A stretch of DNA of 64,000 bases from Rhodanobacter sp. C06. GTDB lineage: Bacteria; Pseudomonadota; Gammaproteobacteria; Xanthomonadales; Rhodanobacteraceae. Both the position numbers and the translations under genes were made by a program. The notes under the pieces are model-generated. The model was not told where the DNA came from and did no database searches. It saw only the letters and a program-made list of their open reading frames with translations. Location of the stretch: NCBI RefSeq assembly GCF_002001105.1, contig NZ_MUNP01000077.1:62001-126000 (forward strand), written 5' to 3'. Shown one piece after another: positions 29,083-59,751 of the stretch (the stretch's first letter is position 1; each line of letters begins with the position of its first letter).

Positions 29083-29808
29083 ATGCTCAAGATGACCCAC
29101 CTGTCCAAGGTCTACCGCACCGAAGTGGTGGAGACCTACGCGCTGCGCGACTTCAACATCGACGTGAAGGAGGGCGAGTTCGTCGCCGTCACCGGTCCGT
29201 CCGGTTCGGGCAAGACCACCTTCCTCACCATCGCCGGCCTGCTGGAAACCTTCACCGGCGGCGAGTACCACCTCGACGGCATCGAGGTGAGCAACCTCAA
29301 CGACAACGCGCGCTCGAAGATCCGCAACGAGAAGATCGGCTTCATCTTCCAGGCGTTCAACCTGATCCCCGACCTCAACGTGTACGACAACGTGGAAGTG
29401 CCGCTGCGCTACCGCGGCATGAAGGCGCCGGAGCGCAAGCAGCGCATCATGGACGCGCTGGAGCGCGTGGGCCTGGCCTCGCGCTTCAAGCACTACCCGG
29501 CCGAACTCTCCGGCGGCCAGCAGCAGCGCGTGGCGATCGCCCGTGCGCTGGCCGGTTCGCCCCGCCTGCTGCTCGCCGACGAACCCACCGGCAACCTGGA
29601 CACGCAGATGGCCCGCGGCGTGCTGGAGCTGCTGGAGGAGATCCATCGCGAAGGCGCCACCATCGTGATGGTGACGCACGACCCCGAGCTGGCCGCGCGC
29701 GCGCAGCGCAACGTGCACATCATCGATGGCCAGGTGGTGGATCTCGCAGAGGACCCGCGTTTCCACAACAGCGTGACCGCGGCACGCGGCAACGCCAGCC
29801 CGGCCTGA
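29083..29808 (+). CDS. ABC transporter ATP-binding protein, MacB/LolD type
   Basis: Cytoplasmic ATPase that should power the neighbouring permeases. The 241 residues contain the Walker A motif GPSGSGKTT (38-46), the Q-loop Gln90, the signature LSGGQ (142-146), Walker B LLLADE (162-167) followed by PTGNLDT, and the switch His199 in VTHD. Length and motifs fit the LolD/MacB/FtsE subfamily, which pairs with FtsX-type permeases that do not import. It is the only ATPase gene in a cluster with 18 permeases, so it presumably serves all of them as a homodimer. The ATG follows a GAGGA at 29069-29073. Only 55 bp separate the start from the palindrome fold, so promoter and any upstream operon genes are not visible. 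In related clusters a periplasmic adaptor gene is expected there. Confidence 0.95.
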   Translation: MLKMTHLSKVYRTEVVETYALRDFNIDVKEGEFVAVTGPSGSGKTTFLTIAGLLETFTGGEYHLDGIEVSNLNDNARSKIRNEKIGFIFQAFNLIPDLNVYDNVEVPLRYRGMKAPERKQRIMDALERVGLASRFKHYPAELSGGQQQRVAIARALAGSPRLLLADEPTGNLDTQMARGVLELLEEIHREGATIVMVTHDPELAARAQRNVHIIDGQVVDLAEDPRFHNSVTAARGNASPA

Positions 29809-29857
29809 TGCCTTCCGCATCCGTCGCCCCCATGCCCGCCCACTGCGAGTCCAGTCC

Positions 29858-31204
29858 ATGCGTGTGAAGCTGCTGCCCGTGCTGCTCCTGCTCGCCGTCG
29901 CCCCGTTCCCGGGGCACGGCGAGGACCTGATGGATGCCTACCGTCAGGCCGTCGCCAACGACCCGGTGCTGGCCACCGCCGATGCGCAACGGCTGCTGGT
30001 GGCCGAAGGCGTCCCGGTGGCCCGCGCCGCGTTGCTGCCGCAGTTGTCAGCGGGACTGGAGATGGACCAGATCCACAGCGGCGGCAGCACCCAGACCACG
30101 TCCGGCAACGGCAACATCGTGCAGACCGGCGGCGGTGGCCACGTGCGCGACCGCAGCCTCACCGGCAACCTCAGCCAGCCGATCATCGACCTGTCCGCGA
30201 TCGCCAACCTGCGCGCGGCGCACGCCGCCCGCGACGCGCAGGAGCAGGTCTACCAGGCCGCGTTGCAGAACCTGTACGTGCGCGTGGCCAATGCGTACTT
30301 CAACGTGCTGGTGTCGCGGGACATGCTGGACATCGATCGCGCCTACGAGGACGCCTACAAGCAGGAGTACGACCAGACGTCCTCGCGCTTCAAGAACGGT
30401 TTGTCGATGGCCGCGGACGTCAGCCAGTCGAAGGCGCTCTACCTGTACATCAAGGCGCAGCGGATCAGCGCCGAAGATGCCCTCAAGGATGCGCGCCGTG
30501 CGTTGCAGCAGATCACCGGCAAGCCGGTGGGCGAGTTGAAGAAGCTGCGCGACGACCTGCCCATGCAGGCGCCGCAGCCGGACAACGAGCAGGCCTGGGT
30601 GGACGCGGCGCTGAAGACCAACCCCACCGTGCTCGCCGCGCGTTACGCCGTGAGCAGCGACGAGCACAAGGTGGCGGCGGCGCGCGCCGGGCACCTGCCC
30701 ACGCTCACCGCGGGCGTGGGTTACAACAAGTTCGGCCAGTGGTCGAACGCCATGCCGGGCACGGGCGCCTACGGGCCGGCCACCACCACGGTAGGCCTCA
30801 CGCTCACCATCCCGCTGTTCAGCGGCGGCCTCACGCATGCGCAGGTGAAGCAGGCGTTGTACCAGCGCGATGCCGACCAGGGCGTGCTGGAAACCCAGCG
30901 TCGCCAGGCCGCGCGCGACGCCGCCAACTACTTCAACCTGGTGGTGGACGGCATCGAGCAGGTGGACAGCGCGCGCGATTCGGTGGAAGCCGCGCAGAAG
31001 ACCGTGGCCTCGATGCGCGCGGGCTACACCATCGGCACGCAGTCGCTGACCAACGTGGTGTTCGCGATCCAGTACCTCGCGAACATGCAGAGCGAATACA
31101 CCGTGGTGCGCCACCAGTTCGTGCTCAACAAGCTGCTGCTCAAGCAGGCGGCCGGGACGATCGACATGCGCGACCTGGAAGCGGTCAACGGGTTGCTGCA
31201 ATGA
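29858..31204 (+). CDS. TolC-family outer-membrane efflux protein
   Basis: Predicted trimeric outer-membrane channel with a periplasmic tunnel, the exit duct of a tripartite exporter. The 448 residues begin with a signal peptide (positive MRVK, hydrophobic run to about residue 17, likely cleavage near GHG21). The rest is polar and helical with the usual two-fold repeat of this family; the motif pattern LMDAYRQAVANDP...ARAALLPQL after the signal peptide is typical. The gene starts 49 bp after the ATPase stop and is followed by a repeat element and the first permease pair, so it is probably co-transcribed. It is the only such channel in the cluster. Substrate cannot be read from the sequence. 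Confidence 0.93.
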   Translation: MRVKLLPVLLLLAVAPFPGHGEDLMDAYRQAVANDPVLATADAQRLLVAEGVPVARAALLPQLSAGLEMDQIHSGGSTQTTSGNGNIVQTGGGGHVRDRSLTGNLSQPIIDLSAIANLRAAHAARDAQEQVYQAALQNLYVRVANAYFNVLVSRDMLDIDRAYEDAYKQEYDQTSSRFKNGLSMAADVSQSKALYLYIKAQRISAEDALKDARRALQQITGKPVGELKKLRDDLPMQAPQPDNEQAWVDAALKTNPTVLAARYAVSSDEHKVAAARAGHLPTLTAGVGYNKFGQWSNAMPGTGAYGPATTTVGLTLTIPLFSGGLTHAQVKQALYQRDADQGVLETQRRQAARDAANYFNLVVDGIEQVDSARDSVEAAQKTVASMRAGYTIGTQSLTNVVFAIQYLANMQSEYTVVRHQFVLNKLLLKQAAGTIDMRDLEAVNGLLQ

Positions 31205-31212
31205 GTTTCGCT

Positions 31213-31308
31213 CCCTCCCCTGCGTGCAGGGGAGGGTTGGGGTGGGGTGCATTTGATCCTGACGAAAGGCACCCCCACCCGGCCTCCCCCTGCAAGCAGG
31301 GGGAGGGG
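31213..31308. repeat. Composite palindromic element between tolC-like gene and pair 1
   Basis: Two hairpins (31213-31236, CCCTCCCCTGC stem; 31283-31306, CCTCCCCCTGC stem) enclose inverted tails (TTGGGGTGGGGTG and CACCCCCACCCGG) and a 20-bp core. The unit fills the gap between the genes and ends just before the Shine-Dalgarno region of A1. Confidence 0.85.
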
Positions 31309-31328
31309 TAAATCGACAGAGGAACGTG

Positions 31329-32639
31329 ATGTTCGCCTATTACTTCCAGCTCGGCCTGCGCAGCCTGCGCCGCAACCCCGCCCTCACCCTCCTGATGGTG
31401 ATGGCGATCGGTTTCGGCGTGGCCGCGTCGATGATCACGTACTCGGTGTTCCGCGCGGTGTCGGGCAATCCGATACCGGACAAGTCGGCGCAGCTGTTCA
31501 TTCCGCAGATCGACGGTTGGGGGCCGCAGCAGAACCTCAAGGGCGAACCGGCGGAAGCGGTGAGCTACATCGATGCGATGGCGCTGCTGCGGGCACATGA
31601 GGCAAAGCGCAAGACGATGCTGTACCAGGTGCTGATGTCTGTGATGCCGGGCGGCAACCGCGAACTGCCCATCTCCGTCAGCGGCTATGCCGTGGGCAGC
31701 GACTTCTTCGCCATGTTCGAGGTGCCGTTCCGCTATGGCAGCGGTTGGGGCCTGCAGGACGACGAGGCACGCGCCGCCGACGTGGTCATCAGCAGCGAGC
31801 TCAACCAGAAGGTGTTCGCCGGCGCGAACAGCGTGGGGCGCACGATCAATCTTGGCGGCCACGATTACCGCGTGGTCGGCGTCACCAACCACTGGAACCC
31901 GCGCCCGCGGTTCTACGACCTGTTCAGCACCGACGGTTTTGCCGATGAACCGGATATCTACATGCCGTTCACCCGGGCCATGGACCTGAAGATGTATCCC
32001 AGCGGCCGCAACAGCTGCCGCGGGCAGCTCAAGTTCACCAACTGGGAAGATTACACACAAAGCAATTGTGTATGGATCACGCCATGGGTGGAGCTGGACA
32101 CCCCGGCCGAAGTCGCGAGCTATCGCAGTTTCCTCACCCACTACGCCGCTGACCAGCAACACGCCGGCCGCTTCGGCTGGGCGCCCAACGTGCGCCTGCG
32201 CGACGTGGCGCAGTGGCTGGACCACGAGCACGTGGTGCCGCCCGAGAGCCGCATTTCACTGGCCGTGGCGCTGGGCTTCTTTGTGATCTGCCTGGTCAAC
32301 ACCATCGGCCTGCTGCTGGCGAAATTCATGCGCCGCGCGGGCGAGATCGGCGTGCGCCGCGCACTGGGCGCCACGCGCAGGGAGATCTACACGCAATACC
32401 TGATCGAGGCGGCGACGGTGGGCCTGGTCGGCGGCGTGCTGGGCCTGCTGCTCACCGCGCTGGGCGTGTCCGGCGTGGGCGTGCTGTTTCCGCCGCAGAT
32501 CGCGCAGCTGGCGCAGCTCGATGTCTCGCTGGTGGGGCTCACCCTGCTCGTGGCCATCGTCGCCACCGTGCTGGCGGCGTTCTATCCGGCATGGCGGGCG
32601 GCGCACGTGCAGCCGGCGTGGCAGTTGAAGTCGAGCTGA
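31329..32639 (+). CDS. FtsX/MacB-type ABC permease A1
   Basis: Inner-membrane permease, first of nine A subunits. The 436 residues show an amphipathic start (MFAYYFQLGLRSLRR), TM1 at about 18-42, a MacB-like periplasmic domain to about 305, TM2 at 310-332, TM3 at 357-380 and TM4 at 399-420. Between TM2 and TM3 lies the FtsX coupling motif GEIGVRRALGATR (338-350). The periplasmic domain carries two cysteines, 230 and 247, probably a disulfide. The ATG is chosen over the GTG one codon upstream because every A paralogue begins with MF. B1 follows after 10 bp and is the likely heterodimer partner. Confidence 0.93.
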   Translation: MFAYYFQLGLRSLRRNPALTLLMVMAIGFGVAASMITYSVFRAVSGNPIPDKSAQLFIPQIDGWGPQQNLKGEPAEAVSYIDAMALLRAHEAKRKTMLYQVLMSVMPGGNRELPISVSGYAVGSDFFAMFEVPFRYGSGWGLQDDEARAADVVISSELNQKVFAGANSVGRTINLGGHDYRVVGVTNHWNPRPRFYDLFSTDGFADEPDIYMPFTRAMDLKMYPSGRNSCRGQLKFTNWEDYTQSNCVWITPWVELDTPAEVASYRSFLTHYAADQQHAGRFGWAPNVRLRDVAQWLDHEHVVPPESRISLAVALGFFVICLVNTIGLLLAKFMRRAGEIGVRRALGATRREIYTQYLIEAATVGLVGGVLGLLLTALGVSGVGVLFPPQIAQLAQLDVSLVGLTLLVAIVATVLAAFYPAWRAAHVQPAWQLKSS

Positions 32640-32649
32640 GGAGAGCACC

Positions 32650-33888
32650 ATGACTATCCAGATCAAGCCCGTCCTCACCGCGCTGCGCCGTCACAAGGCC
32701 GGCACCGTGCTGATCACGCTGCAGATCGCCTTGACCCTGGCGATCGTGTGCAACGCCTTGTTCATCATCCACGCGCGGCTGGCCAATCTGGGCGAGGCCA
32801 GTGGCGTGGACGAATCCAGCGTCTTCGTCATCCGGAACCAGTGGGCGGCCGAATGGCCGACGGCACAGGTCGATGCGCAGGTGCAGGCCGATCTGCTCGC
32901 GCTGCGGCAGCTGCCGGCCGTGCGCGATGCCACGCCGGCCAACGGCTATCCCCTGCAGGGCGGCGGCTGGGACAACTTCGTCACGCTGACGCCCGAGCAG
33001 ACCCAGCCGGTCACCGACAGCGCGGTGTACCTGGGTGACGAGCACTTCATCGACACGCTGGGGCTGAAGCTGGTCGCGGGGCGCAACTTCCGCCCCGACG
33101 AAGTGATGGTGATGGGCACCCAGCAGGCGATCACGCCCTCAACGGTGATCGTGAGCCAGGCGCTGGCCGACCGGCTGTTTCCCGATGGCAACGCGCTGGG
33201 CAAGAGCTTCTACGCGATGGGTGCCACGCCCAGCACCATCATCGGCGTCGTCGATACCTTGCACCGGCAGGGCGTGAGCCAGTGGAACAAGGCCTTTACC
33301 GGGCAATCGCTGATTTGGCCGATACGGTCGGCCGACTCGCGCGGCCTCTACTACATCGTGCGGGCGAAGCCGGGCCAGCTCGCTGCCGCGATGCGCGAGG
33401 CGCCCAAGGCGCTGTACGCGCAGAGCCGCCTGCGCATCATCGATGCCAAGGATGGCCTCCAGGACTACGCCACGATCCGCCACAAGGTCTTCGACAGCGA
33501 CCGCGGCATGGCGATCTTGATGGGCATCATCTGCGCCGTGCTGCTGGCGATCACGGCCGCCGGCATCGTGGGCCTCACCAGCTTCTGGGTGGGCCAGCGC
33601 CGCAAGCAGATCGGCGTGCGCCGGGCGCTGGGCGCGCGGCAGCGCGACATCCTCGCCTACTTCCTCACCGAGAACTTCCTGATCAGCGCGGCGGGCGTGG
33701 CGCTGGGCGTGGTGCTGGCGTACGCCTTCAACCTGTGGACGGTGACCCGCTTCGCGCTGGATCACATGTCGCTGGCCTATGTAGGCGTCGGCGTGATCGT
33801 GCTGTTGCTGCTGGGACAAGGCGCGGTACTGGCGCCGGCGCTGCGCGCTTCGCGCGTGTCGCCGGTGGAGGCGACGCGCAGCGTGTGA
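32650..33888 (+). CDS. FtsX/MacB-type ABC permease B1
   Basis: Partner of A1. The 412 residues begin with the B-type signature (IKPVLTALRRHK), then TM1 at 17-40 containing IVCN, a periplasmic domain of about 240 residues, TM2 at 286-308, TM3 at 342-362 and TM4 at 376-396. The cytoplasmic loop QIGVRRALGARQRDILAYF after TM2 matches the FtsX family. B1 and B2 form a subgroup: TM1 reads LTLAIVCN, and the loop before TM2 lacks the YF residues found in the other B subunits. Ribosome site GAGGAG lies 8 bp before ATG. Confidence 0.93.
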   Translation: MTIQIKPVLTALRRHKAGTVLITLQIALTLAIVCNALFIIHARLANLGEASGVDESSVFVIRNQWAAEWPTAQVDAQVQADLLALRQLPAVRDATPANGYPLQGGGWDNFVTLTPEQTQPVTDSAVYLGDEHFIDTLGLKLVAGRNFRPDEVMVMGTQQAITPSTVIVSQALADRLFPDGNALGKSFYAMGATPSTIIGVVDTLHRQGVSQWNKAFTGQSLIWPIRSADSRGLYYIVRAKPGQLAAAMREAPKALYAQSRLRIIDAKDGLQDYATIRHKVFDSDRGMAILMGIICAVLLAITAAGIVGLTSFWVGQRRKQIGVRRALGARQRDILAYFLTENFLISAAGVALGVVLAYAFNLWTVTRFALDHMSLAYVGVGVIVLLLLGQGAVLAPALRASRVSPVEATRSV

Positions 33889-33896
33889 CGCATTTA

Positions 33897-34015
33897 CCTC
33901 CTCCCCTGTGTGCAGGGGAGGGCTGGGGTGGGGTGCTTTCGACCTCGGGGACGCACCCCCTCCCGACTTCCCCCTGCGACCGAAGGAAGTCCCTTTGGGG
34001 CAAGCAGGGGGAGGA
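33897..34015. repeat. Composite palindromic element between pairs 1 and 2, with loop insertion
   Basis: Same architecture as the element before A1: a first hairpin (CCTCCCCTG/CAGGGGAGG), tails and a core, then a second hairpin. The second stem (33970-33977 with 34004-34011) has a 26-nt loop instead of the usual 2 nt, apparently from a 24-nt insertion containing GAAGGAAGTCCCTTTGGGG. Confidence 0.82.
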
Positions 34016-34038
34016 GACCCATCACCGGAGAGAACGAA

Positions 34039-35358
34039 ATGTTCGCCTACTACCTCGACCTCGCATTGCGCAGCCTGAAACGCAGTCCCGGCCTCACCGC
34101 CTTGATGGTGCTGGCGATCGGCTTCGGCGTGGCCGCCTCGATGACCTCGTGGTCGGTGTTCCGTGCCGTGTCGGGCGACCCGATCCCGTGGAAATCCGCG
34201 CAGCTGTTCGTGCCGCAGATCGACAACTGGGGGCCGAGCAACAACCCCCTTTCCCAGGGTGAGCCGCCGAACGCGATGGACTACGCCGACGCGACGGCGC
34301 TGATGCGCGACCACCGCGCCAAGCTGCAGTCGGCGATGTACCAGATCTCGCCCTCGGTCGTGCCGGCGGAGGCCACCAAGCATCCGATCAACGTCAGCGG
34401 CCATGCGGTGTACGGCGAGTTCTTCCCGATGCTGGACGTGCCGTTCCAGTACGGCAGCGGCTGGGGCGCCAGCGATGACACCAACCGGGCGCAGGTGGTG
34501 GTGATCAGCAGCAAGCTCAACCAGAAGCTGTTCGGCGGCGCCAACAGCGTGGGCAAGAGCGTCAACATCGAAAGCCACGACTACCGCGTGGTCGGCGTGC
34601 TGAAGGACTGGAACCCGCAGCCGCGCTTCTACGACGTGGTCAACTCGGGCGGCTTCAACAGCCAGTCCGACGACGTGTTCCTGCCGTTCCTGACCGCCAT
34701 CCAGGCGAACATGCAGAACGACGGCAACACCAATTGCAACGCGGTGCCCAAGGAATCCGGCTTCGTCGGCCTGCAGCACTCCGAGTGCGTGTGGATTGCC
34801 TACATGGCCGAGCTGGACGACGCCTCGGCGGTGTCGACCTACCGCAACTACCTGCAGGGTTACGCACGCGAGCAGCAGCAGAACGGGCGCTTCGGCTGGG
34901 CGCCGAACAACCGCCTGCGCAACCTGCCGGCCTGGCTGGACAACCAGCACGTGGTGCCCAGCGACACCAAGGTCTCGCTGCTGGTGGCGCTCGGCCTGCT
35001 GCTGGTGTGCCTGGTCAACACCATCGGCCTGCTGCTGGCGAAGTTCCTGCGCCGCAGCGCCGAGATCGGTGTGCGGCGCGCACTGGGCGCGCCGCGCATG
35101 GCGATCTACGCGCAGTTCCTCACCGAAGCCGGCATCGTCGGCGTGGCCGGCGGCGTGCTGGGCCTGCTGCTCACCTGCGCGGGCGTGGCCAGCGTGGGCT
35201 GGGTGATGCCGAAGGATATCGCCGCGCTGGCGCGGCTGGACGTCTCGCTGCTGCTGCTGACCCTGCTGGTGGCGGTGGTCGCCACCATGCTGGCCGGCCT
35301 GTATCCGACCTACCGTGCCTCGCGGGTGCAACCCGCTTGGCAGCTGAAGAGCAACTAA
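34039..35358 (+). CDS. FtsX/MacB-type ABC permease A2
   Basis: A subunit of pair 2, 439 residues. It is closest in style to A1: both share FGVAASM in TM1, IP(D/W)KSAQLF after it, and a C-terminus ending QPAWQLKS. The periplasmic cysteines are 233 and 250, with the same spacing of 17 as in A1. The open frame extends 129 bp upstream through the repeat, but the conserved start MFAYYLDLALRSL and a GGAG at 34027-34030 fix the ATG at 34039. Confidence 0.93.
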   Translation: MFAYYLDLALRSLKRSPGLTALMVLAIGFGVAASMTSWSVFRAVSGDPIPWKSAQLFVPQIDNWGPSNNPLSQGEPPNAMDYADATALMRDHRAKLQSAMYQISPSVVPAEATKHPINVSGHAVYGEFFPMLDVPFQYGSGWGASDDTNRAQVVVISSKLNQKLFGGANSVGKSVNIESHDYRVVGVLKDWNPQPRFYDVVNSGGFNSQSDDVFLPFLTAIQANMQNDGNTNCNAVPKESGFVGLQHSECVWIAYMAELDDASAVSTYRNYLQGYAREQQQNGRFGWAPNNRLRNLPAWLDNQHVVPSDTKVSLLVALGLLLVCLVNTIGLLLAKFLRRSAEIGVRRALGAPRMAIYAQFLTEAGIVGVAGGVLGLLLTCAGVASVGWVMPKDIAALARLDVSLLLLTLLVAVVATMLAGLYPTYRASRVQPAWQLKSN

Positions 35359-35368: not shown

Positions 35369-36628
35369 ATGAAACTGCATCCCATGATCGCGGCATTGCG
35401 CAAGCACAAGGCGGGCGTGGTGCTGATCGCGCTGCAGATCGCGCTGACCCTGGCGATCGTCTGCAACGCCATCTTCATCATCGGCCAGCGCATCGACCGG
35501 GTGAACCGCCCCACCGGACTGGACGAGAGCAACCTGTTCCTGGTCACCCAGCAATGGGTGGGCGCGCCCAGCGCCGACACGCCCGATGGCGTGGCCAAGC
35601 TCGACGCCATGCAGAAGGAGGATCTCGTGGCGCTGCGCAACCTGCCCGGCGTGGCCTCGGTGGCGCCGATCAACTCGCTGCCGTTGCTGAATTCCTCCTG
35701 GAACGGCGCGGTCTCGCTCAAGCCCGATGCCAAGTTCAGCGACACGGGCAACAACGTGCGCACCACCTACTACTTCACGGACGACCAGGCCATGTCGACG
35801 CTGGGCGTGAAACTGGCGGCCGGCCGCTGGTTCAATGCCGGCGACGTGCAAAACCAGGGCTTCCGCGACAACCCGCCGCGCCCGATCGTCATCGTCACCA
35901 AGGCGCTGGCGGACAAGCTGTTCCCGAAAGGTGACGCGGTGGGCAAGCCGATCTATGTCGACGGCAGCAGCGCCCCCAGCACCATCGTCGGCGTGGTGAC
36001 GCGCCTGCAAGTGCCTTCCACTGGCAGCTGGGTCAACGGGTTCACCTGGAACGCCACTCTGGTGCCCACGCGGCTGGACGCGGGCTTCGCGCGTTACGCA
36101 GTGCGTACCAAACCGGGCCAGCTGGAAGCAGCGATGAAGGCGGCGGCGCCCACGCTGTACAAGGTGAACCCGCTGCGCGTGCTCGACGACGACAGCGTCA
36201 AGTCGTACGCCGACATCCGCGCCGAGGCTTATCGCGCCGACGTGGGCATGGCGATCCTGATGGGCGTGATCTGCCTGGTCCTGCTCAGCGTCACCGCGGC
36301 GGGCATCGTGGGCCTCACCAGCTTCTGGGTCGGCCAGCGCCACCGCCAGATTGGCGTGCGCCGCGCGCTGGGCGCGCGCAAGGTCGACATCCTGCACTAC
36401 TTCCAGCTGGAGAACCTGCTGATCGCCGGCAGTGGCGCAGTGATCGGCATCGTCATGGCGATCGGCCTCAACCTGTGGCTGATGCGCCTCTATCAGATGG
36501 ACCGCCTGCCGGTGGTCTACACCTTGATCGGCGTGGCGGCAGTGCTGGTGCTGGGCCAGTGCGCGGTGTTCGTACCCGCGCGGCGCGCGTCCAACGTGCC
36601 GCCGGTGACGGCGACGCGGGCGGCGTGA
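35369..36628 (+). CDS. FtsX/MacB-type ABC permease B2
   Basis: B subunit of pair 2, 419 residues, starting 10 bp after A2 behind an AAGGAG. TM1 contains LTLAIVCNAIF. TM2 to TM4 flank the loop QIGVRRALGARKVDILHYFQLENLL. The C-terminus ends VPPVTATRAA, where the other B subunits end in TRSV. Its periplasmic domain lacks a cysteine pair. Confidence 0.93.
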   Translation: MKLHPMIAALRKHKAGVVLIALQIALTLAIVCNAIFIIGQRIDRVNRPTGLDESNLFLVTQQWVGAPSADTPDGVAKLDAMQKEDLVALRNLPGVASVAPINSLPLLNSSWNGAVSLKPDAKFSDTGNNVRTTYYFTDDQAMSTLGVKLAAGRWFNAGDVQNQGFRDNPPRPIVIVTKALADKLFPKGDAVGKPIYVDGSSAPSTIVGVVTRLQVPSTGSWVNGFTWNATLVPTRLDAGFARYAVRTKPGQLEAAMKAAAPTLYKVNPLRVLDDDSVKSYADIRAEAYRADVGMAILMGVICLVLLSVTAAGIVGLTSFWVGQRHRQIGVRRALGARKVDILHYFQLENLLIAGSGAVIGIVMAIGLNLWLMRLYQMDRLPVVYTLIGVAAVLVLGQCAVFVPARRASNVPPVTATRAA

Positions 36629-36782: not shown

Positions 36783-38084
36783 ATGTTTGCTTACTACCTC
36801 GACCTCGCCCTGCGCAGCCTCAAGCGCAACCGCGTGCTCACCGCGCTTATGGTGCTGGCCATCGCGGTGGGCATCGGTGCGTGCATGACCACGCTGACGG
36901 TGGTGCATCTGTTGTCCGGCGATCCGCTGCCCGGCAAGAGCAGCACGCTGTTTTTCCCGCAGGTGGATCCGGAGAATCCCGTCGTGGGGGGAAGCACCGA
37001 GCCGCGTCCGGCGATGGATTACCGCTCGGCCATGGACCTGTGGAACGCGCATCGCGCCGACCGCCAGGCGATCATCACCAGCAGCCCCGTGAAGGTGCGC
37101 TTGCCGGACAGTGGCCAGCCACCGCTGCTGCCGAGCATGCTCTCCACTTCGGCGGATTTCTTCCCGATGTTCGACGTGCCGTTCCAGTACGGCTCCGGCT
37201 GGAGCGCGGACGACGACGCGCACCATGCGCGCGTGGCGGTGATTTCGGCCGACCTCAACCAGAAACTGTTTGGCGGCGCCAACAGCGTGGGCCGCATCCT
37301 GCGCGTGCGCGATGCCGACATGCGCATCGTCGGCGTACTGAAGCCGTGGCGCCCCACGCCGCTGTTCTACGACCCGTGGAGCCAGAACTTCAGCAAGTCG
37401 GAAGATGTCTTTGCCCCGTTCACCAGCAGCATGGAAATCAACAAGGGCAACTTCCAAGCCTATACCTGCTGGCATGTGCCGCCATCCATGGGCGACCTGC
37501 AGAACGCCGATTGCGTGTGGGTGTGGCTGTGGGTGGAGCTGGACAGCCCGGCCAAGGTGCGCGACTACGCGCGCTTCCTGGACGATTACGCGAACACGCA
37601 GAAGTCGCTGGGCCGCTTCGCCGTGGGCAGCGAGCATGCGCGGCTGCGCGACCTGATGACCTGGCTGACCTACCGCGGCCAGGTGCCCGGCGACGTGCGT
37701 CTGCAGGCGTGGCTGGCGTCGGCCTTCCTCGTCATCTGCCTGTTCAACGCGGTGGGCTTGCTGCTGGCGAAGTTCCTGCGTCGCAGTGGCGAGATCGGCG
37801 TGCGCCGCGCGCTGGGCGCCAGCCGCGGCGCGATCTTCGCTCAGTGCCTGGTCGAGGCCGGTCTGATCGGTTTGCTCGGCGGCGGCTTCGGCTGGCTGCT
37901 GACGCTGTTCGGGTTGTGGCTGGTGCGGCAGCAACCGGTGGACTACGCCCACCTCGCGCACCTGGACACCGCCATGTTCCTCGTCACGTTCGTACTGGCG
38001 GTCGGCACCAGCCTGCTCGCCGGGCTGATACCTGCGCTGCGCGCCAGTCGCGTGGTTCCCGGCTGGCAACTCAAGGCGTTGTGA
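36783..38084 (+). CDS. FtsX/MacB-type ABC permease A3
   Basis: A subunit of pair 3, 433 residues. TM1 reads AIAVGIGACMTTLTVVHLLSG, shared with A6. The periplasmic domain has cysteines 229 and 244. After TM2 the coupling motif is SGEIGVRRALGASRGAIF. The C-terminus, VVPGWQLKAL, differs from the usual VAPALQLK. The ATG follows GAGGAG within 13 bp. Confidence 0.93.
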   Translation: MFAYYLDLALRSLKRNRVLTALMVLAIAVGIGACMTTLTVVHLLSGDPLPGKSSTLFFPQVDPENPVVGGSTEPRPAMDYRSAMDLWNAHRADRQAIITSSPVKVRLPDSGQPPLLPSMLSTSADFFPMFDVPFQYGSGWSADDDAHHARVAVISADLNQKLFGGANSVGRILRVRDADMRIVGVLKPWRPTPLFYDPWSQNFSKSEDVFAPFTSSMEINKGNFQAYTCWHVPPSMGDLQNADCVWVWLWVELDSPAKVRDYARFLDDYANTQKSLGRFAVGSEHARLRDLMTWLTYRGQVPGDVRLQAWLASAFLVICLFNAVGLLLAKFLRRSGEIGVRRALGASRGAIFAQCLVEAGLIGLLGGGFGWLLTLFGLWLVRQQPVDYAHLAHLDTAMFLVTFVLAVGTSLLAGLIPALRASRVVPGWQLKAL

Positions 38085-51261: not shown

Positions 51262-52572
51262 ATGTTCGGCTACTACCTCGACCTGGCCCTGCGCAGCCTC
51301 AAGCGCACACCGATCCTCACCGGCCTGATGGTGCTCGCCATCGGACTGGGCATCGGTGCGTCGATGACCATGCTCACGGTGCTGCACGTGATGACCGACG
51401 ATCCGCTGCCGGGGCGCAGCTCGCATCTGTATGTGCCGCATCTCAATCCGTTGCCGCTCAAAGGCAACTTTTTCGCCAATGGTTATGACCCCTCCGATCA
51501 CCTCACCTGGCCGGATGCGATGGCCTTGCTCAATGCACAGAGTGCCCGGCGGCAGTCAGCGATGGCGGCAGGTCACTTGCTGGTGCGTCCATCGGCTGTG
51601 GGCATGCGATCGTTCTACGTGGATGGTCGCTACACCACGGCGGATTTCTTCACCATGTTCGGCGTGCCATTCGAGCGCGGCAGCAGTTGGAGCGCGGCCG
51701 ACGATGCGGCCGGCGCGCATGTGGTGGTGCTGGCCGATTCGCTTGCGCGCAAGCTGTTCGGCGGCACTGACGCCGTTGGCAAGATGGTCAGGATGGGCGA
51801 AAACGATCTTCGCGTGATCGGCGTAACCACCAACTGGCAACCGTCGCCGCTGTTCTATGCCGACAGCCGGACCAAGCGGTACAGCGACCGTGACCTGTTC
51901 TTCCTGCCGCTTTCCACGGCAGTGGATTTGAATTTGGGCACCGACGGCAACGTGGACAGTTGGGGCAAGATGCCCAATGGCGACATGCGCAGCGCGACTA
52001 CCACGTGGTTGCAGTTCTGGGTGCAACTCGACACGCCCACGCAGGTGGCTGCGTACAGGCAGTTCCTGATCGACTACTCCGCGCAGCAGAAATCGCTGGG
52101 CCGATTCCAGCGCCCGGCAACCAACGCCAGGTTGTACAGCCTGATGGGCTGGCTGGTGCACGAAAACCTCGTGCCCGGCGACGTGCGCCTGCAAATGTGG
52201 CTGGCGCTGGGTTTCCTGCTCGTGTGCATGGTGAACGTCATGGCCTTGCTGCTGGCGAAGTTCCTTCGCCGTAGCGGCGAGATCAGCGTGCGCCGCGCCT
52301 TGGGTGCGCGGCGGCGCGACATCTTCGTACAGTTCGGCATCGAGTCGGCGGTCATTGGCGTGGCCGGCGGCGTGCTTGGTGTGCTGATCGCGGAACTCGG
52401 GCTGTGGAGTGTGCGGCACCGACCTGACGACTACGCCCACATCGCGCGCATGGACGCGTCGATGCTGCTGACGACGTTGGCGCTGGCGGTTTTCGCCAGC
52501 ATGATCGCCGGCTTGCTTCCCGCGTGGCGGGCCTGCCGCGTGGCGCCCGCGTTGCAACTCAAGACGCTTTGA
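51262..52572 (+). CDS. FtsX/MacB-type ABC permease A8
   Basis: A subunit of pair 8, 436 residues, closely related to A7. The frame is open upstream to 51010, but MFGYYLDLALRSLKRTP with AGGAGG in front fixes the start. The positions of the A-type cysteines are Ser and Thr (DSWGKM...TTTWLQFW). Confidence 0.93.
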   Translation: MFGYYLDLALRSLKRTPILTGLMVLAIGLGIGASMTMLTVLHVMTDDPLPGRSSHLYVPHLNPLPLKGNFFANGYDPSDHLTWPDAMALLNAQSARRQSAMAAGHLLVRPSAVGMRSFYVDGRYTTADFFTMFGVPFERGSSWSAADDAAGAHVVVLADSLARKLFGGTDAVGKMVRMGENDLRVIGVTTNWQPSPLFYADSRTKRYSDRDLFFLPLSTAVDLNLGTDGNVDSWGKMPNGDMRSATTTWLQFWVQLDTPTQVAAYRQFLIDYSAQQKSLGRFQRPATNARLYSLMGWLVHENLVPGDVRLQMWLALGFLLVCMVNVMALLLAKFLRRSGEISVRRALGARRRDIFVQFGIESAVIGVAGGVLGVLIAELGLWSVRHRPDDYAHIARMDASMLLTTLALAVFASMIAGLLPAWRACRVAPALQLKTL

Positions 52573-52583: not shown

Positions 52584-53819
52584 ATGCAACTTCGACCGAT
52601 TCTTTCCACCCTGCGCCACCACAGACTCACTGCCATGCTGCTGACGCTGCAAGTGGCCCTCACCTGCGCGATCGTCTGCAATGTGGCTTTCATGATCGCC
52701 AGCCGCATCGCGGATGTTTCGATGCCGACTGGCATTGCCGAAAGCGAGCTGTCCACGATCCAGAGCACCGGGACTGATCTCCACCAGAATGCGCAGGCGC
52801 TGCACGATACCGACCTTGCGGCATTGCGTGCGATTCCCGGCGTGGAATCCGTCGTGGCGGTGAGTAGTGCGTTGCCGCTGAACCGCAACGATTCGTTTGG
52901 CCCCGCGTGCCCGAGCCGTCAGGTGTTCGAGCAGGCGATGCGTACCTCGTCGTTGTTCAAGGGTGGCGATTGCCCACTGTCCAGTTTTTACGATGGCACG
53001 CCCGGTCTGCTCAACACGCTGGGGCTGCAACTGGTGGCAGGGCGCGATTTCCTTCCGGGGGAATACACGGCGGAAAACAATCCACATGTCGCGATCATCA
53101 GTCGCGCGCTGGCCGACAAGCTCTATCCGGGGCAGGACGCGCTCGGCAAGGTGATGATCTTGGGTGGCAATGCCTTGCAGGTGTCAGGTGTTGTCGCCAC
53201 GTTGGCGCGTCCAGAGTTGCACGGCATGGGGGATGGCTACGCCAGCGTGATCATGCCGCAGTTGCCGGACAGCACCAGCGAGATCTACGTGCTGCGCAGT
53301 GCGCCGAGTGATCGCGAGCACATTTTGAAAGCTGCGGAGGCGGTGCTGTTCAAGGTCGATCCCACCCGCGTCATCGACCCGGATCAGGTGCAGACGTACT
53401 CGCAGATTCGCGATGCTTATTTCCAGCGCGACACCACCATGATCGGCCTGCTGATCGCCTCGGCGCTGGGCCTGCTGTTCGTCACCGCGCTGGGCATCGC
53501 GGGGCTGGCGAATTTCTGGGTGCAGCAGCGCACGCGCAGCATCGGCATTCGTCGTGCCATCGGCGCCACCCGTGGCGACATCCTGCGCTATTTCCAGACC
53601 GAGAACTTGCTGATCGTCACGGTGGGCATCGTGCTGGGCGTGCTGCTGGCCGTGCTGATGAATCTCCTGCTGATGACGCACTACGAACTGCCGCGCCTGC
53701 CGCTGTGGTATCTGCCAATCGGCGCAGCGGTGCTGTGGGCGCTGGGGCAACTCTCGGTGCTGTCGCCGGCGCTGCGCGCCGCGCAGGTGCCGCCGGTGGT
53801 GGCGACACGGAGCGTGTGA
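52584..53819 (+). CDS. FtsX/MacB-type ABC permease B8
   Basis: B subunit of pair 8, 411 residues. The start is the ATG behind GAGGGAGA, where MQLRPILSTLRHHR matches B7. The periplasmic cysteines are 21 residues apart (ACPSRQ...GGDCPL). Bases 53592-53710 are identical to 50897-51015 of B7, third codon positions included. Confidence 0.93.
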   Translation: MQLRPILSTLRHHRLTAMLLTLQVALTCAIVCNVAFMIASRIADVSMPTGIAESELSTIQSTGTDLHQNAQALHDTDLAALRAIPGVESVVAVSSALPLNRNDSFGPACPSRQVFEQAMRTSSLFKGGDCPLSSFYDGTPGLLNTLGLQLVAGRDFLPGEYTAENNPHVAIISRALADKLYPGQDALGKVMILGGNALQVSGVVATLARPELHGMGDGYASVIMPQLPDSTSEIYVLRSAPSDREHILKAAEAVLFKVDPTRVIDPDQVQTYSQIRDAYFQRDTTMIGLLIASALGLLFVTALGIAGLANFWVQQRTRSIGIRRAIGATRGDILRYFQTENLLIVTVGIVLGVLLAVLMNLLLMTHYELPRLPLWYLPIGAAVLWALGQLSVLSPALRAAQVPPVVATRSV

Positions 53820-53823
53820 TCTT

Positions 53824-53987: not shown

Positions 53988-55298
53988 GTGTTCGGTTATT
54001 ACCTTGATCTGGCGCTGCGCAGCCTGAAGCGCACGCCCATACTCGCCGGTCTGATGATGCTGGCGATCGCGCTGGGCATCGGCGCATCGGTCACCATGCT
54101 GGCGGTGTTGCACAACCTGTCGGGCAACCCGCTGCCGGGGCGCAGCGACATGCTGTTCCATCCGCAGGTGGATCCGCGGCCGGCGGATCTGCCGGGTGCG
54201 ACGGAGGAGCCGCCGGACGATCTCACCTATGTCGATGCGGTGAACCTGTACCAGCTCGGCATTGCGCCGCGCCGCGCGGTGATGAGTAGCAACTGGCTGC
54301 CGGTGCGCAAGGATGCGCCGGACAGCCCGCTGGCGATGTTCACCGATCGCGCCACCACCGCCGATTTCTTCGCGATGTTCGGCGTGCCCTTCCTCTACGG
54401 TTCGGCCTGGTCGGCGCAGGACGATGCGAACCACGCGCAGGTGGTGGTGCTGTCGCGGGCGATGAACCAGAAGCTGTTCGGCGGCGAGAACAGCGTGGGC
54501 AAGACCCTGGTGATCGCCACCAAGACCTTCCGCGTGGCGGGCGTGATCGACGACTGGAACCCGCAGCCGCGCTTCTACGACATCAACGACGGTCCCTTCG
54601 CGAAGGCTGAGCAGATGTACCTGCCGTTCTTTACCTGGCTCGATCTGCCGCAGGACTACGGCTACGGTCCCATGCGCTGCTGGGGCAACGACCCGGGCGC
54701 GGGGCTGCATGACCCCAAGGCCAAGCAATGCACCTGGGCGCAGTTCTGGGTGCAACTGGATACGCCCGCGCAGGTGGCCGAGTACCGCGCGGTGCTCACC
54801 CAGTACAGCGCGCAGCAGCATCAGCTGGGCCGCTACCAGCGCGAACCCAACGTGCGCCTGCGTGGCCTGCTCGATTGGCTGGACGTCAAGCACGTGATCC
54901 CGGTGACCGTGCGCATGCAGACCTGGATCGCCTTCGGTGTGCTCTTGATCTGCATGGTCAACACCGTGGGCCTGATGGTGGCGAAGTTCCTGCGCAAGTC
55001 GGGCGAGATCGGCGTGCGTCGCGCGCTGGGCGCCTCGCGCCGCGCGGTGTTCCTGCAATGCCTGGTGGAGGCCGGCGTGGTGGGCGTGGCCGGCGGCCTG
55101 CTCGGCCTGCCGCTGGCGTGGCTGGGCCTGTGGATGGTGCGCCAGCAGCCGGTGAGCTTTGCCGCGTCCGCGCATTTCGATCCTTCCATGCTGGGCATCG
55201 CGCTGGCGCTGGCCGTGTTGTCGGCACTCGCCGCCGGCGTGTGGCCCGCCTTGCGCGCCTCGCGCGTGGCTCCCGCCCTGCAGGTGAAATCGCTATGA
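53988..55298 (+). CDS. FtsX/MacB-type ABC permease A9
   Basis: A subunit of pair 9, 436 residues. It begins with GTG, the only non-ATG start among the A genes, behind AAGGAG at 53975-53980; the translated MFGYYLDLALRSLKRTP confirms it. The periplasmic cysteines are 17 residues apart (RCWGND...QCTWAQFW). The coupling motif is GEIGVRRALGASRRAVF. The last codon and stop overlap the B9 start (ATGA). Confidence 0.93.
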   Translation: MFGYYLDLALRSLKRTPILAGLMMLAIALGIGASVTMLAVLHNLSGNPLPGRSDMLFHPQVDPRPADLPGATEEPPDDLTYVDAVNLYQLGIAPRRAVMSSNWLPVRKDAPDSPLAMFTDRATTADFFAMFGVPFLYGSAWSAQDDANHAQVVVLSRAMNQKLFGGENSVGKTLVIATKTFRVAGVIDDWNPQPRFYDINDGPFAKAEQMYLPFFTWLDLPQDYGYGPMRCWGNDPGAGLHDPKAKQCTWAQFWVQLDTPAQVAEYRAVLTQYSAQQHQLGRYQREPNVRLRGLLDWLDVKHVIPVTVRMQTWIAFGVLLICMVNTVGLMVAKFLRKSGEIGVRRALGASRRAVFLQCLVEAGVVGVAGGLLGLPLAWLGLWMVRQQPVSFAASAHFDPSMLGIALALAVLSALAAGVWPALRASRVAPALQVKSL

Positions 55299-56515
55299 GA
55301 ATCTTCTTCCAGATTCGCCCCATCTTCGCCGCGCTGCGCAGCCACAAGACCGCGGTGCTGTTGCTGGTGCTGGAGATCGCGCTGACCATGGCGGTGCTCG
55401 GCAACCTGGTGTTCATCGTGTACGGCACCATGCAGCGCTCGCATACGCCGACAGGTGTGGCGGAGAGCCAGATCGGCCTGATCCAGAGCATCGGTGTGAT
55501 CGGCGAAGACAATCCCGGCACCGTCGCGGGCAATCTCGCCACGATGCGCGCCGCGCCCGGCGTGGCGGATGCCGCTTACGGCTTTCTGCCCCTGTGGCAC
55601 GCGGATCGCGGCCCACTCTTTCTCGATGCCTCGCGGCAGCACCCCGCCGTGCATGCCTACGAGTTCGTGGGCAGCCAGGGCTTGAACCGTACGCTGGGGC
55701 TGCACGTCGTGCGTGGGCGCGACTTCACGGATACCGAGCTTCCCGATGTCATGGACGTCCTCATGGGCAAGATTGCCGCGCCTGTTCAGGCGCTGCTGAC
55801 GGAGTCGCTCGCCCAACGCCTGTATCCGGACGGGAACGCGCTGGGCAGCATCCTTTACGACGGAACCAAAAGCCTGCGGGTGATCGGCATCGTGGATCAC
55901 CTGCGCGGCGAGATCACCGGCAGTGCGAGCGACGATGATTCGCTGGTGTACGAATTCCGCGTCGGTACACAGAACATGGGCGGCGGCTACCTCGTGCGCA
56001 GCCAGCCAGGTCGCCTGCCGGAAGCGCTGCGTGCCGCCGCGGCAGCCCTGCAGAAAGCCAATCCGGGCCATGTGGAGAGCAAGGTGCTCACCATGGCCGA
56101 GCTGCGCGAAAACTATTTCGAGAGCGACCTCGCCGCCGGCCGCATGCTGGTGGCGATCATGCTGATCCTGCTGATCGTCACCGCGCTGGGCGTGAGCGGC
56201 CTGGCCAGCTTCTGGGTGCAGCAGCGGAGAAGGCAGATCGGCATGCGCCGCGCGCTCGGCGCCACGCGCCGGGACATCCTGCACTACTTCCAGATGGAAA
56301 ACCTGCTCATCGTCAGCGGCGGCGTGCTGCTGGGTGCGCTGTTCGCCTATGCGCTGAACCTGTTCCTGATGCACCGCTTCGAGCTGGCGCATTTGCCGTC
56401 GCACTACCTTGCGGTCGGTGCGCTGGCACTGTGGCTGCTCGGCCAGCTTGCCGTGCTCGGTCCCGCGCTCCGCGCGGCGGCGGTGCCGCCGGTGGTGGCG
56501 ACGCGGAGCGTGTAA
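55295..56515 (+). CDS. FtsX/MacB-type ABC permease B9
   Basis: B subunit of pair 9, 406 residues, overlapping A9 by four bases. It is the most divergent B subunit: the N-terminus is MRIFFQIRPIFAALRSHK, and TM1 reads LEIALTMAVLGNLVF, lacking the CN present in the other eight. The loop after TM2, QIGMRRALGATRRDILHYFQMENLL, and the C-terminus VPPVVATRSV are conserved. A 595-codon frame covering it upstream is a shadow of A9. The response regulator follows after 88 bp. Confidence 0.93.
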   Translation: MRIFFQIRPIFAALRSHKTAVLLLVLEIALTMAVLGNLVFIVYGTMQRSHTPTGVAESQIGLIQSIGVIGEDNPGTVAGNLATMRAAPGVADAAYGFLPLWHADRGPLFLDASRQHPAVHAYEFVGSQGLNRTLGLHVVRGRDFTDTELPDVMDVLMGKIAAPVQALLTESLAQRLYPDGNALGSILYDGTKSLRVIGIVDHLRGEITGSASDDDSLVYEFRVGTQNMGGGYLVRSQPGRLPEALRAAAAALQKANPGHVESKVLTMAELRENYFESDLAAGRMLVAIMLILLIVTALGVSGLASFWVQQRRRQIGMRRALGATRRDILHYFQMENLLIVSGGVLLGALFAYALNLFLMHRFELAHLPSHYLAVGALALWLLGQLAVLGPALRAAAVPPVVATRSV

Positions 56516-56603
56516 TGCGCGGAAATTTTCATGTACGTAGGCCAGTGGTCATGGCAACCTTTTCAACCGGAGCCGCATCCATGCGGACATGTGCAGGAAA
56601 TCC

Positions 56604-57944
<1,341 letters not shown>

Positions 57945-58019
57945 CGTATGTCCCTTGCCGTCATCATGGCGGCATGGAAAGCTGCCGCAGCGTTCATGCT
58001 TCCGGATCCGGGGATTGCC

Positions 58020-58334
58020 ATGCGTACCAGAAACCTCGTTGTCCTGCCGCTGTGCCTGCTGGCCTTCGCGGTCACGGCACAGACGGCGCCCGACCAGTGG
58101 GCGCGCGTCGCGCCTTCCGCCAGTGTCGCCGCTCCGCGCGACTACGCCGTGCACGCCGACAAGGCCAAGCCCTCGCCGTTCAAGTTCAAGGAATCGCGCA
58201 AGACCTGGGAGAAGGAGCCGCCGGCGCCGCGCGCGAACGACCAGAACGCGGTGATGGGCACCGGGCGCGCCTGGCAGAACGGCCAGCCGCCGGTGAGCTG
58301 CGCGCAGACGCCGCACGATCCGGCATGCCGTTGA
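58020..58334 (+). CDS. Small secreted protein of unknown function
   Basis: I do not recognise the family. The 104 residues begin with a clear signal peptide (MRTRNLVVLPLCLLAFAVTAQT). The rest is polar, Lys/Pro-rich and low in hydrophobicity (KPSPFKFKESRKTWEKEPP), ending with two cysteines in SCAQTPHDPACR. A longer frame from 57948 exists, but the inner ATG gives the signal peptide. The gene lies between the response regulator and the kinase, so a role near the sensor is possible but unproven. The outer limit of visible symmetry (58054) falls at its codon 12. Confidence 0.7.
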   Translation: MRTRNLVVLPLCLLAFAVTAQTAPDQWARVAPSASVAAPRDYAVHADKAKPSPFKFKESRKTWEKEPPAPRANDQNAVMGTGRAWQNGQPPVSCAQTPHDPACR

Positions 58335-58365
58335 GCCTCGCCACGCCCAAGCAGGGTTGCCGCTG

Positions 58366-59751
58366 ATGTGGCGCCGCCTGAATTCGTTGCAGTTCCGGCT
58401 GACCCTGCTGCTCGCGGTGGCCGCGGTGGCTGGCGCGCTGGTCTACGTGGGCCTGACCCAGTGGCCGCTGCCGCAACTGTTCGACTGGCTGCACAAGGAT
58501 TTGTCGGTGTCGCTGCGCACGCCGGCGCAACTGGGCATGTACGGTGGCCTCGTGGTCAGTGCGCTGGTGCTGCTGCCGCTGGCCTGGTGGCTGGCATATC
58601 TGGTGATGTCGCCGCTGAGCCGGCTGCTGCGCGCGCTGGAAGGCGCGGTGGCGAGCTACCGCGACGGCGATTTCAGCTTCTCCATCGCGGCACGCCGCAG
58701 CGACGAACTGGGCGAACTGATCCGCATGCACAACGCGCTGGGCCAGACCCTGCGCGAGCAGCGCCAGCACCTGGTGCAGCGCGAGCTGCTGCTGGAGACG
58801 GTGGTGCAGAACACGCCGGTGGCGCTGGTGCTCACCGACGGCAACGGCCGCGTGGTCTATTCCAACATCGCCTCGCGCCACCTGTTCAACGAGGGCAAGA
58901 GCCTCAACGGGCTGGATTTCACCGAGTTGCTGACCGAGGCGCCGGAGGCCTTGTCGCGCGCAGTGCAGGGCGGCGAGGACGCGCTGCTCAGCGTGGAGAT
59001 GGACGGCAGCGAGGAAACCTTCCACCTGTCACAGCGCGCGTTCCGCCTGCAGGGGCGGCCGCACCGACTGCACCTGTTCCGGCGCATGACGCGCGAGCTG
59101 TCGCGGCAGGAAGTGGCGACCTGGAAGCGGGTGATCCGGGTGATCAGCCACGAGCTCAACAACTCGCTGGCGCCGATCTCCTCGCTGGCGCACTCCGGTG
59201 CCGAACTGGCACGCCGCGGCAACCTGGAGCGCCTGCCCGGCGTGTTCGCCACCATCGGCGAGCGCGCCAAGCACCTGCACGGCTTCATCGCCGGCTACGC
59301 CAGTTTCGCCAAGCTGCCGGCGCCGCAGCCGCAGACGGTGGAGTGGGAGCCGTTCCTCGCCTCGCTGGCGTTGCACTGCCATTACCGGCTTGCCGCGCCG
59401 GCACCTGCGCATCCCGGCCGCTTCGATCCGGTGCAGATCGAGCAGGTGCTGATCAACCTGATCAAGAACGCGCACGAATCCGGCGGCGCGGAGGATGAGG
59501 TCAGCCTGACCATCCTCGATGCCGGCAGCGAGCTGCGCATCGAGGTGGCCGATCGCGGCCCGGGCATGAGCGAAACCGTGCTGGCGCAGGCGTTGCTGCC
59601 GTTCTATTCCACCAAGCGCTCCGGTACCGGCCTCGGCCTTGCGTTGGCGCGCGAGATCGCCGAGGCGCATGGCGGACGGGTGCTGCTGGCCAACCGCGAA
59701 GGCGGGGGCCTGCGCGTGAGCCTGCGCCTGCCGCAGATCGGTTCGCGCTAG
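58366..59751 (+). CDS. Sensor histidine kinase of the NtrB/NtrY type
   Basis: Membrane sensor kinase, 461 residues, presumed partner of the sigma-54 regulator. TM1 at about 11-31 and TM2 at 58-82 enclose a short periplasmic loop of only about 27 residues. A HAMP-like segment (82-130) and a PAS domain (about 140-240) follow, then the dimerisation helix with His262 in ISHELNNSL, the N box (NLIKNAHES), the G1 box DRGPGM (396-401) and the G2 box SGTGLGLAL (419-427). The small periplasmic loop suggests it senses membrane state or a partner protein and not a large ligand. The ATG is preferred over a TTG three codons upstream because of ribosome-site spacing. It lies outside the inverted repeat. Confidence 0.93.
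   Translation: MWRRLNSLQFRLTLLLAVAAVAGALVYVGLTQWPLPQLFDWLHKDLSVSLRTPAQLGMYGGLVVSALVLLPLAWWLAYLVMSPLSRLLRALEGAVASYRDGDFSFSIAARRSDELGELIRMHNALGQTLREQRQHLVQRELLLETVVQNTPVALVLTDGNGRVVYSNIASRHLFNEGKSLNGLDFTELLTEAPEALSRAVQGGEDALLSVEMDGSEETFHLSQRAFRLQGRPHRLHLFRRMTRELSRQEVATWKRVIRVISHELNNSLAPISSLAHSGAELARRGNLERLPGVFATIGERAKHLHGFIAGYASFAKLPAPQPQTVEWEPFLASLALHCHYRLAAPAPAHPGRFDPVQIEQVLINLIKNAHESGGAEDEVSLTILDAGSELRIEVADRGPGMSETVLAQALLPFYSTKRSGTGLGLALAREIAEAHGGRVLLANREGGGLRVSLRLPQIGSR

Follow-up and report, generated by a model that had tools for sequence, protein, structure and literature searches.

A probable modular MacB-type exporter with many permease pairs and one ATPase in Rhodanobacter and its relatives

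Introduction

In type VII, or MacB-superfamily, ATP-binding cassette (ABC) systems, the permease takes several forms: according to PMC5985334, MacB is a homodimer with a fused ATPase, LolCE is a heterodimer and YbbP is a fused pair. Here we describe a locus of Rhodanobacter sp. C06 in which permease genes of this kind form a long array of alternating A and B genes. The locus occupies positions 29083-59751 of the 64,000-nucleotide stretch that was analysed (the window; positions 62,001 to 126,000 of contig NZ_MUNP01000077.1). An earlier note, made from the sequence of this stretch alone, had presented it as a candidate new system of nine interchangeable heterodimers sharing one ATPase and one TolC channel, with a secreted peptidase-like enzyme and dedicated sigma-54 control.

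We consider it likely that the locus encodes a modular type VII (MacB/ADOP) tripartite exporter, in which many cognate A-B pairs work on one engine, composed of a membrane fusion protein (MFP) and an ATPase, under a sigma-54 regulon of its own. It is not a new system in a categorical sense: its parts are of the ADOP/MacB type, within type VII ABC systems, and the component families are known. In the open-licence PubMed Central papers searched, we found no description of the array, its regulon, the satellite pairs, the regulatory motif or the co-regulated peptides, with PMC11928319 as a probable exception for the array.

Results

The array comprises 18 FtsX/MacB-type permease genes at 31329-56515. 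All genes of the locus lie on the forward strand. As the earlier note had stated, nine A and nine B genes alternate without a break, with one ATPase and one TolC gene before them and a sigma-54 two-component system after them. The sole ATPase of the array (29083-29808) is an ABC protein resembling DarD and LolD: it matched Pfam ABC_tran (1.5e-31), and its top NCBIfam model was NF038007 (DarD), at 254.5 bits and under the cut-off of 375. The TolC-family outer membrane channel (29858-31204) matched Pfam OEP and, at 289.9 bits, exceeded the TIGR01844 cut-off of 225.15. The pairs follow as A1 (31329-32639) and B1 (32650-33888), A2 (34039-35358) and B2 (35369-36628), A3 (36783-38084) and B3 (38096-39313), A4 (39453-40760) and B4 (40772-42004), A5 (42143-43450) and B5 (43512-44717), A6 (44770-46080) and B6 (46082-47314), A7 (48578-49888) and B7 (49892-51124), A8 (51262-52572) and B8 (52584-53819), and A9 (53988-55298) and B9 (55295-56515). 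Spacing is -4 to 61 nucleotides within a pair, the minimum being the 4-nucleotide overlap of A9 with B9, and 52-168 nucleotides from a B gene to the next A gene. Downstream are genes for a sigma-54 response regulator with receiver, AAA+ and Fis-type helix-turn-helix domains (56589-57944; Pfam Response_reg, Sigma54_activat and HTH_8) and a histidine kinase (58357-59751; Pfam HATPase_c, with HAMP slightly below its cut-off).

The A proteins are 433-439 residues long and the B proteins 401-419 residues (n = 9 each), with BLAST identities within the array of 40-74% and 35-72%, respectively. The MF(G/A)YY start reported earlier for A is present in all nine, counting the GTG start of A9 as Met; the RP(I/V)L start reported for B holds strictly in only five of nine, all nine having (R/K/H)P close to the start. 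The four permeases scanned with Pfam, of the 18, each contain MacB_PCD and FtsX; these include A1, B1, A5 and B5. Predicted single-chain structures of A5 and B5 (mean pLDDT, the predicted local distance difference test score, 91.2 and 91.5) have four long helices each and MacB (5gko_A) as the best match in the PDB. Between B6 and A7 lies an accessory gene (47370-48530) for an alpha/beta hydrolase resembling S33 peptidases and proline iminopeptidases (Pfam Abhydrolase_1, 3.4e-19; TIGR01250, 60.3 bits, under the cut-off of 167.65), with an N-terminus that is signal-like by eye. PADLOC, run on four proteins, returned only generic ATPase and LolE-like transmembrane matches, and no defence system.

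Each A gene has a fixed B partner. Over 204 pairs (pair G143_4, whose A protein has 247 residues, was excluded), A and B distances were correlated with an r of 0.918; 500 within-genome shuffles of the partners gave a mean of 0.083 and a maximum of 0.154. The nearest A and the nearest B in another genome came from the same pair in 5086 of 6126 cases, as compared to about 1147 expected by chance. The partners are therefore cognate and not, as had been proposed, interchangeable.

The heterodimers themselves find support in these fixed partners and in fused homologues. In the four permeases scanned against the ADOP model TIGR03434, A proteins (A1 among them) matched the N-terminal half and B proteins (B1 among them) the C-terminal half, at 165-181 bits each (cut-off 622.3). 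A sister operon of the window's own genome (L040, G000:C12, 1.8-14.1 kb) encodes, in order, an MFP, an ATPase, three fused ADOP-like permeases, a sigma-54 regulator and a kinase. Three fused homologues, one from this genome and two from G001, aligned to ADOP over almost the entire length of the proteins at 634.7, 608.6 and 633.2 bits, two of the three exceeding the cut-off. Because A and B match successive halves of ADOP and the permeases of the sister operon are fused, an A-B pair would most simply be a split heterodimer, equivalent to an ADOP-type fused permease. G001 has the same kind of sister operon with two fused permeases, again several per ATPase.

We searched for the MFP and read arrays in other genomes. 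At E <= 1e-60, the MFP search gave matches in 190 of the family's 195 genomes, representing 25 of 26 genera. Matches were also obtained in 242 of 298 genomes of the order and in 7 of 281 in a sample of the class, the window's own genome included. The 80 named MFP loci that were kept belong mostly to Rhodanobacter, Dyella, Luteibacter, Frateuria and Fulvimonas; they extend 10 kb past the MFP, and pair counts in them are incomplete. Arrays were read in 12 of 15 genomes of the window's genus, in 17 other genera of the family (19 arrays) and outside the family (6), giving 37; eight further arrays of genus g23 brought the total to 45, and the reading covered 18 of the family's 26 genera. G006, G010 and G011 (85-87% complete, fragmented) were left out, as was G101, whose contig ends early and which was kept among the 38 upstream regions analysed below.

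Strict A-B alternation was observed in 44 of the 45 arrays, with 1-12 pairs each: 5-12 in the window's genus, 1-7 in other genera of the family, 1-4 outside the family and 5-8 in g23. In the first 37 arrays, matches covering less than 60% of the query were ignored, so that fragments such as the B remnants of G074 are uncounted. All 45 arrays contain one ATPase of the array's type and, apart from the broken contig of the window's own genome, one MFP. In the first 37, the MFP precedes the ATPase in 36, and a regulator and a kinase end the array in 35. TolC and the peptidase-like enzyme proved less constant than supposed: TolC is present in 11 of 12 arrays of the genus and among other genera only in some, and the S33-like hydrolase in 4 of 12. 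On this sampling of sequences, the array is conserved and old, and the system spans Rhodanobacteraceae, with few pairs in the other genomes of the order Xanthomonadales that were read.

Several arrays have individual features. The exception to strict alternation, G155 (L091, 9872-11116), has an additional B permease with no A partner. In G074 (joined L189/L076, 19221-19440), short B-gene remnants lie right before the regulator. The ATPase reading frame of G013 (L015, near 6624-7330) is apparently shifted in an otherwise complete array, by error or decay. A gene for a DUF885 protein follows the last pair and precedes the regulator at L192:1988-3844 (confirmed with Pfam) and, by likeness, in six arrays of other genera.

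Upstream of the MFP gene we identified a composite control site. Among 38 upstream regions, 35 have a -24/-12 promoter agreeing at 10-11 of 11 positions and 34 have a dyad, TGTCCGCGGACA, agreeing at 10-12 of 12; in 26 of these 34, the dyad lies 72-74 nucleotides ahead of the promoter. In control regions before ATPase and regulator genes, under slightly stricter scoring, best scores were mostly 6-8, with a maximum of 9. Of the 195 family genomes, 156 contain the composite site of dyad and promoter, and none contains the reversed pattern used as a control. In the class sample, the window's own genome is the only one of 281 with the site, which it has twice, before the MFP and at a peptide locus. 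An activator with receiver, AAA+ and helix-turn-helix domains, a -24/-12 promoter and an upstream dyad are the parts of a sigma-54 two-component regulon; all of them are present in this system, which supports the dedicated control proposed earlier. Within the array, a promoter scan of both strands of 29028-64000 yielded 12 sites scoring at least 9 of 11 (mononucleotide shuffles, 4.65 per strand). Sites scoring 10 lie at 52541 and 62152 on the forward strand and at 46076 on the reverse strand (shuffles, 0.25 per strand), so that the array may have an internal promoter at 52541.

The site is not confined to the operon. We read 48 distinct composite sites (50 loci, two of them read twice), a part of those found: 30 were among the sites listed by the search, and 20 were picked from non-MFP sites. 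Behind them stand 12 MFP operons, 10 A-B loci, 21 small-peptide genes, 3 TolC-family genes about 0.9 kb on and 2 genes for secreted-looking proteins, the peptide and secreted-protein classes being sorted by eye. TolC genes placed in this manner outside the operon occur in one genus, and the secreted-looking proteins, of 319-324 residues, at L235 and L263 of genus g2. In the window's genus there are 27 dyads outside arrays, of which 20 were fetched and 11 have a promoter at 72-74 nucleotides; these 11 precede peptides (8), an A-B pair (1) or a 28-residue peptide followed by a hydrolase (2). The latter two loci are L222 (G009:C40), whose hydrolase belongs to the beta-lactamase family, and L225 (G008:C35). 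In the window's own genome, the exact dyads at G000:C13:26942 and G000:C66:87218 lack a promoter at the usual distance.

The site-linked peptides are 28-73 residues long. By eye, they share an N-terminus of the form MKFExLMLxxLFxAC, a hydrophobic leader, often together with a two-cysteine C-terminal stretch. Two peptides that were scanned had no Pfam match and an NCBIfam match at chance level only. They may be exported by the pump or belong to it as small membrane subunits. At G000:C24:44209 (L212, promoter near 4589), tandem genes for peptides of 64 and 67 residues adjoin a gene that is trmL-like by eye.

The A-B pairs found behind the composite site away from arrays, which we term satellites, comprise 17 pairs at 11 loci in eight genomes. 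No MFP was present near these 11 loci (20-kb stretches, with flanks of 3.4 to 10 kb). Since satellite pairs have the operon's control site and no such engine nearby, they suggest that one ATPase and adaptor would serve many pairs in trans, and they are the strongest sequence evidence for such sharing. Together with the 45 arrays, they favour the earlier suggestion of one ATPase for many pairs.

A published phenotype may belong to this system. In Rhodanobacter R179, dssA encodes an ABC permease in a 17-gene operon that is conserved across Xanthomonadales and needed to dampen plant root immunity (PMC11928319). In the genus holding Rhodanobacter sp. C01 and Root480, ten arrays have 14-21 genes, one of them exactly 17, when only query-matched genes are counted. 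The dssA operon is probably the array system; the fit is good, not unique. The text of PMC11928319 that was read gives no description of a permease array, and the earlier R179 paper (PMC8208891) mentions neither dssA, dssB, a permease nor an ABC transporter. Through its probable identity with dssA, the array may have a role in damping root immunity. A TonB-dependent receptor gene lies upstream of the MFP (L017:3920-6487; C42, L039:3429-5966) in 5 of 12 genomes of the window's genus, in upstream stretches of 2.5-8 kb; the published dssB likewise encodes a TonB-dependent transporter.

The peptides and the plant phenotype bear on a first alternative, namely that the array is an ordinary multidrug or antimicrobial-peptide efflux system, induced by envelope damage and having broad, overlapping specificities. 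Its MacB-like fold fits this alternative, as does the match of its MFP to the RND-type (resistance-nodulation-division) adaptor model TIGR01730 (129.8 bits, cut-off 94.9); some operons, moreover, have genes for peptidase-like or DUF885 proteins within or next to them. The small peptides controlled by the composite site and the plant phenotype of dssA, which is probably a member of the system, favour dedicated export, without being decisive, and we regard ordinary efflux as possible though somewhat unlikely.

A second alternative holds that the pairs use other ATPases or act as ATPase-free sensors, the array being a sensor panel for the kinase. Type VII BceAB modules sense together with two-component systems (PMC5985334), the satellites have no ATPase of their own, and the regulator and kinase stand at the end of nearly all arrays. 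The pairs, however, form one row of genes with the MFP, the ATPase and often TolC; in one genus TolC itself is placed behind the composite site outside the operon, where a pure sensor would not need it; and the coupling stretch is one of the most strongly conserved regions of both A and B. We regard this second alternative as improbable.

The permease copies differ most in their periplasmic parts. Between copies of the same genome in the window's genus, identity is 41% for A and 31% for B in the periplasmic part, as compared to 56% and 62%, respectively, in the C-terminal coupling part. The ratio of nonsynonymous to synonymous substitution rates (dN/dS), determined in three genome pairs, was 0.26-0.33 for the periplasmic and 0.13-0.17 for the C-terminal part, indicating purifying selection; positive selection was not seen in these pairs. 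The greater periplasmic divergence that had been noted earlier is accordingly real. When the periplasmic parts of the genus (104 from A and 104 from B) were compared, the closest relative was always in another genome and never in the same one, so the copies are old, separate lineages. B7 and B8 of the window are 99% identical in the C-terminal part and 61% in the periplasmic part, which looks like recombination between copies. As B7/B8 is the single such case among same-genome copies, gene conversion was rejected as a general force.

These data also weigh on the possibility that the array arose by gene amplification and that most of its copies are redundant, with no separate functions. The range of 5-12 pairs within one genus and the recombined B7/B8 copies would agree with it; the age of the lineages and the purifying selection acting on them make it very improbable. 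In G014, the closest genome by MFP, the MFP, ATPase, TolC, regulator and kinase are 98-99% identical to those of the window's genome, whereas the array has 7 pairs, whose 14 orthologous permease genes are 69-97% identical. The pairs therefore turn over faster than the engine.

The remainder of the window largely repeats the array. Read on the opposite strand, positions 1-29027 match 29028-58054 with 2 mismatches and no spacer, and represent a mirror copy rather than a second array. The contig carrying the window (C44) is 182,054 bases long, or 2 x 91,027; of its 91,027 mirrored position pairs, 48,972 (3 mismatches) and the outermost 6,000 (9 mismatches) were compared. Palindromes of such size are unstable in bacteria, and one centred on the exact midpoint of a contig is almost surely an assembly artefact. 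It doubles the gene counts on C44: the whole-genome FtsX search gave 49 matches, and the 36 of these on C44 correspond to 18 genes counted twice. Although it is present in the deposited contig, a true inverted duplication (36 permeases, 58-kb palindrome) can be dismissed as extremely unlikely in view of the midpoint position, the missing spacer and the single array of G014, which lies on a 4.1-Mb contig with the MFP immediately ahead.

The centre of the palindrome lies 55 bases ahead of the ATPase gene, so the gene normally preceding the ATPase has been cut off. In six genomes of the genus this gene encodes an MFP of 423 residues. The copy of the window's own genome is outside the window, at C42:18360-19628. 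Beyond the MFP, C42 continues for about 950 bases, so that in this genome an insert or a misassembly may separate the MFP from the ATPase. The mirror half, the displaced MFP and the accessory nature of the hydrolase were absent from the earlier note. Downstream of the kinase lie genes for a Band_7/SPFH protein (59886-60842) and a ThrE-type threonine/serine exporter (62109-63353), which show no sign of belonging to the system.

Discussion

The gene order, the fixed pairing, the conserved site and the satellites without a nearby engine can be read directly from the sequences. We propose that one MFP and one ATPase would form a common engine and that each A-B gene pair would give one heterodimeric permease that has a periplasmic specificity of its own; export would proceed via a TolC channel. 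Pairs would multiply as A-B units, both inside the operon (up to 12) and as engine-less satellites elsewhere. The kinase and the sigma-54 regulator would switch on the operon, the satellites, the small leader peptides and, in one genus, the TolC locus through the composite site. Either the co-regulated peptides or different ones could serve as substrates.

A number of observations weigh against this proposal. The co-inheritance of A and B could be explained by linkage alone. The satellites were chosen because A-B genes follow the site, and their number is no rate; at two of the 11 loci an ABC ATPase (31-33% identity) lies 6-7 kb away, and the shortest flanks are 3.4 kb. In G306 a second ATPase (29% identity) is found 1.1 kb behind the single pair of the array, and the ATPase of the sister operon is 57% identical and could serve some pairs. 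As for the regulon, binding of the dyad by the array's regulator is a proposal, and 9 of the 20 fetched non-array dyads have no promoter at 72-74 nucleotides. Of the 195 family genomes, 39 lack the exact composite site, and the MFP is present in 35 of these 39; the 39 include nearly all of g4, g5, g22, g24 and g25, whose MFP scores are lower and whose arrays are outside those read. Finally, dssA was matched to the array by description only.

If one ATPase does serve many heterodimers, recognition and energy supply would be separate modules of an export pump, and single pairs could be used to ask how type VII pumps select their substrates. The regulon provides a concrete list of co-expressed peptides as candidate cargo or subunits, and the array is the probable molecular setting of the published dssA plant phenotype. 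A bolder version of the modular exporter is an ECF-like exporter regulon, in which cognate heterodimers, encoded in one operon and at scattered chromosomal sites, would plug in turn into one ATPase-adaptor-TolC engine. Each would export a different small peptide of one family, to which the co-regulated MKFE peptides would belong, and root-dwelling Xanthomonadales in general would use this secretion route to dampen immunity. This version we regard as doubtful.

Group II ECF and shared-ATPase importers likewise have one energising module and several specificity modules, some of which are encoded elsewhere. In contrast to the array, they are importers and have other folds; no sequence relation is claimed. 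LolCDE and YbbAP resemble the array in having a heterodimer or a fused pair with a separate ATPase. Each has one pair only, no TolC and a different role. Scores against LolCDE models were below the cut-offs (LolD, 218.8 of 307.75; lolCE, 18-30 of 362.45). The darobactin exporter DarBCD also has a separate ATPase, an adaptor and a permease, DarB, of 777 model positions, and DarD is the closest curated model of the array's ATPase. DarBCD, however, is tied to one peptide gene cluster, and the array remained under its cut-offs (DarD, 254.5 of 375; DarC, 80.9 of 450).

The closest parallels lie within type VII itself, with which the array shares FtsX and a MacB-like periplasmic domain (Pfam, 4 of 18 permeases) and four transmembrane helices (A5 and B5 models). 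With MacAB-TolC it has the permease fold, the adaptor and TolC in common: the MFP is present in 36 of 37 arrays and on C42 of the window's own genome, and TolC in most arrays of the genus. It differs in having two permease genes, a separate ATPase and many pairs, in place of a homodimer with a fused ATPase; the best score against the MacB model, 213.5 with a cut-off of 966, came from the ATPase alone. Neither A nor B, at 165-181 bits for the four permeases scanned, is the single polypeptide of about 800 residues that exceeds the ADOP cut-off. The two proteins nevertheless align to the N- and C-terminal halves of ADOP in order, and the sister operon has several fused permeases of this family per ATPase, whereas in the array the permeases are split into two genes, and the MFP, ATPase and regulator stand within the operon.

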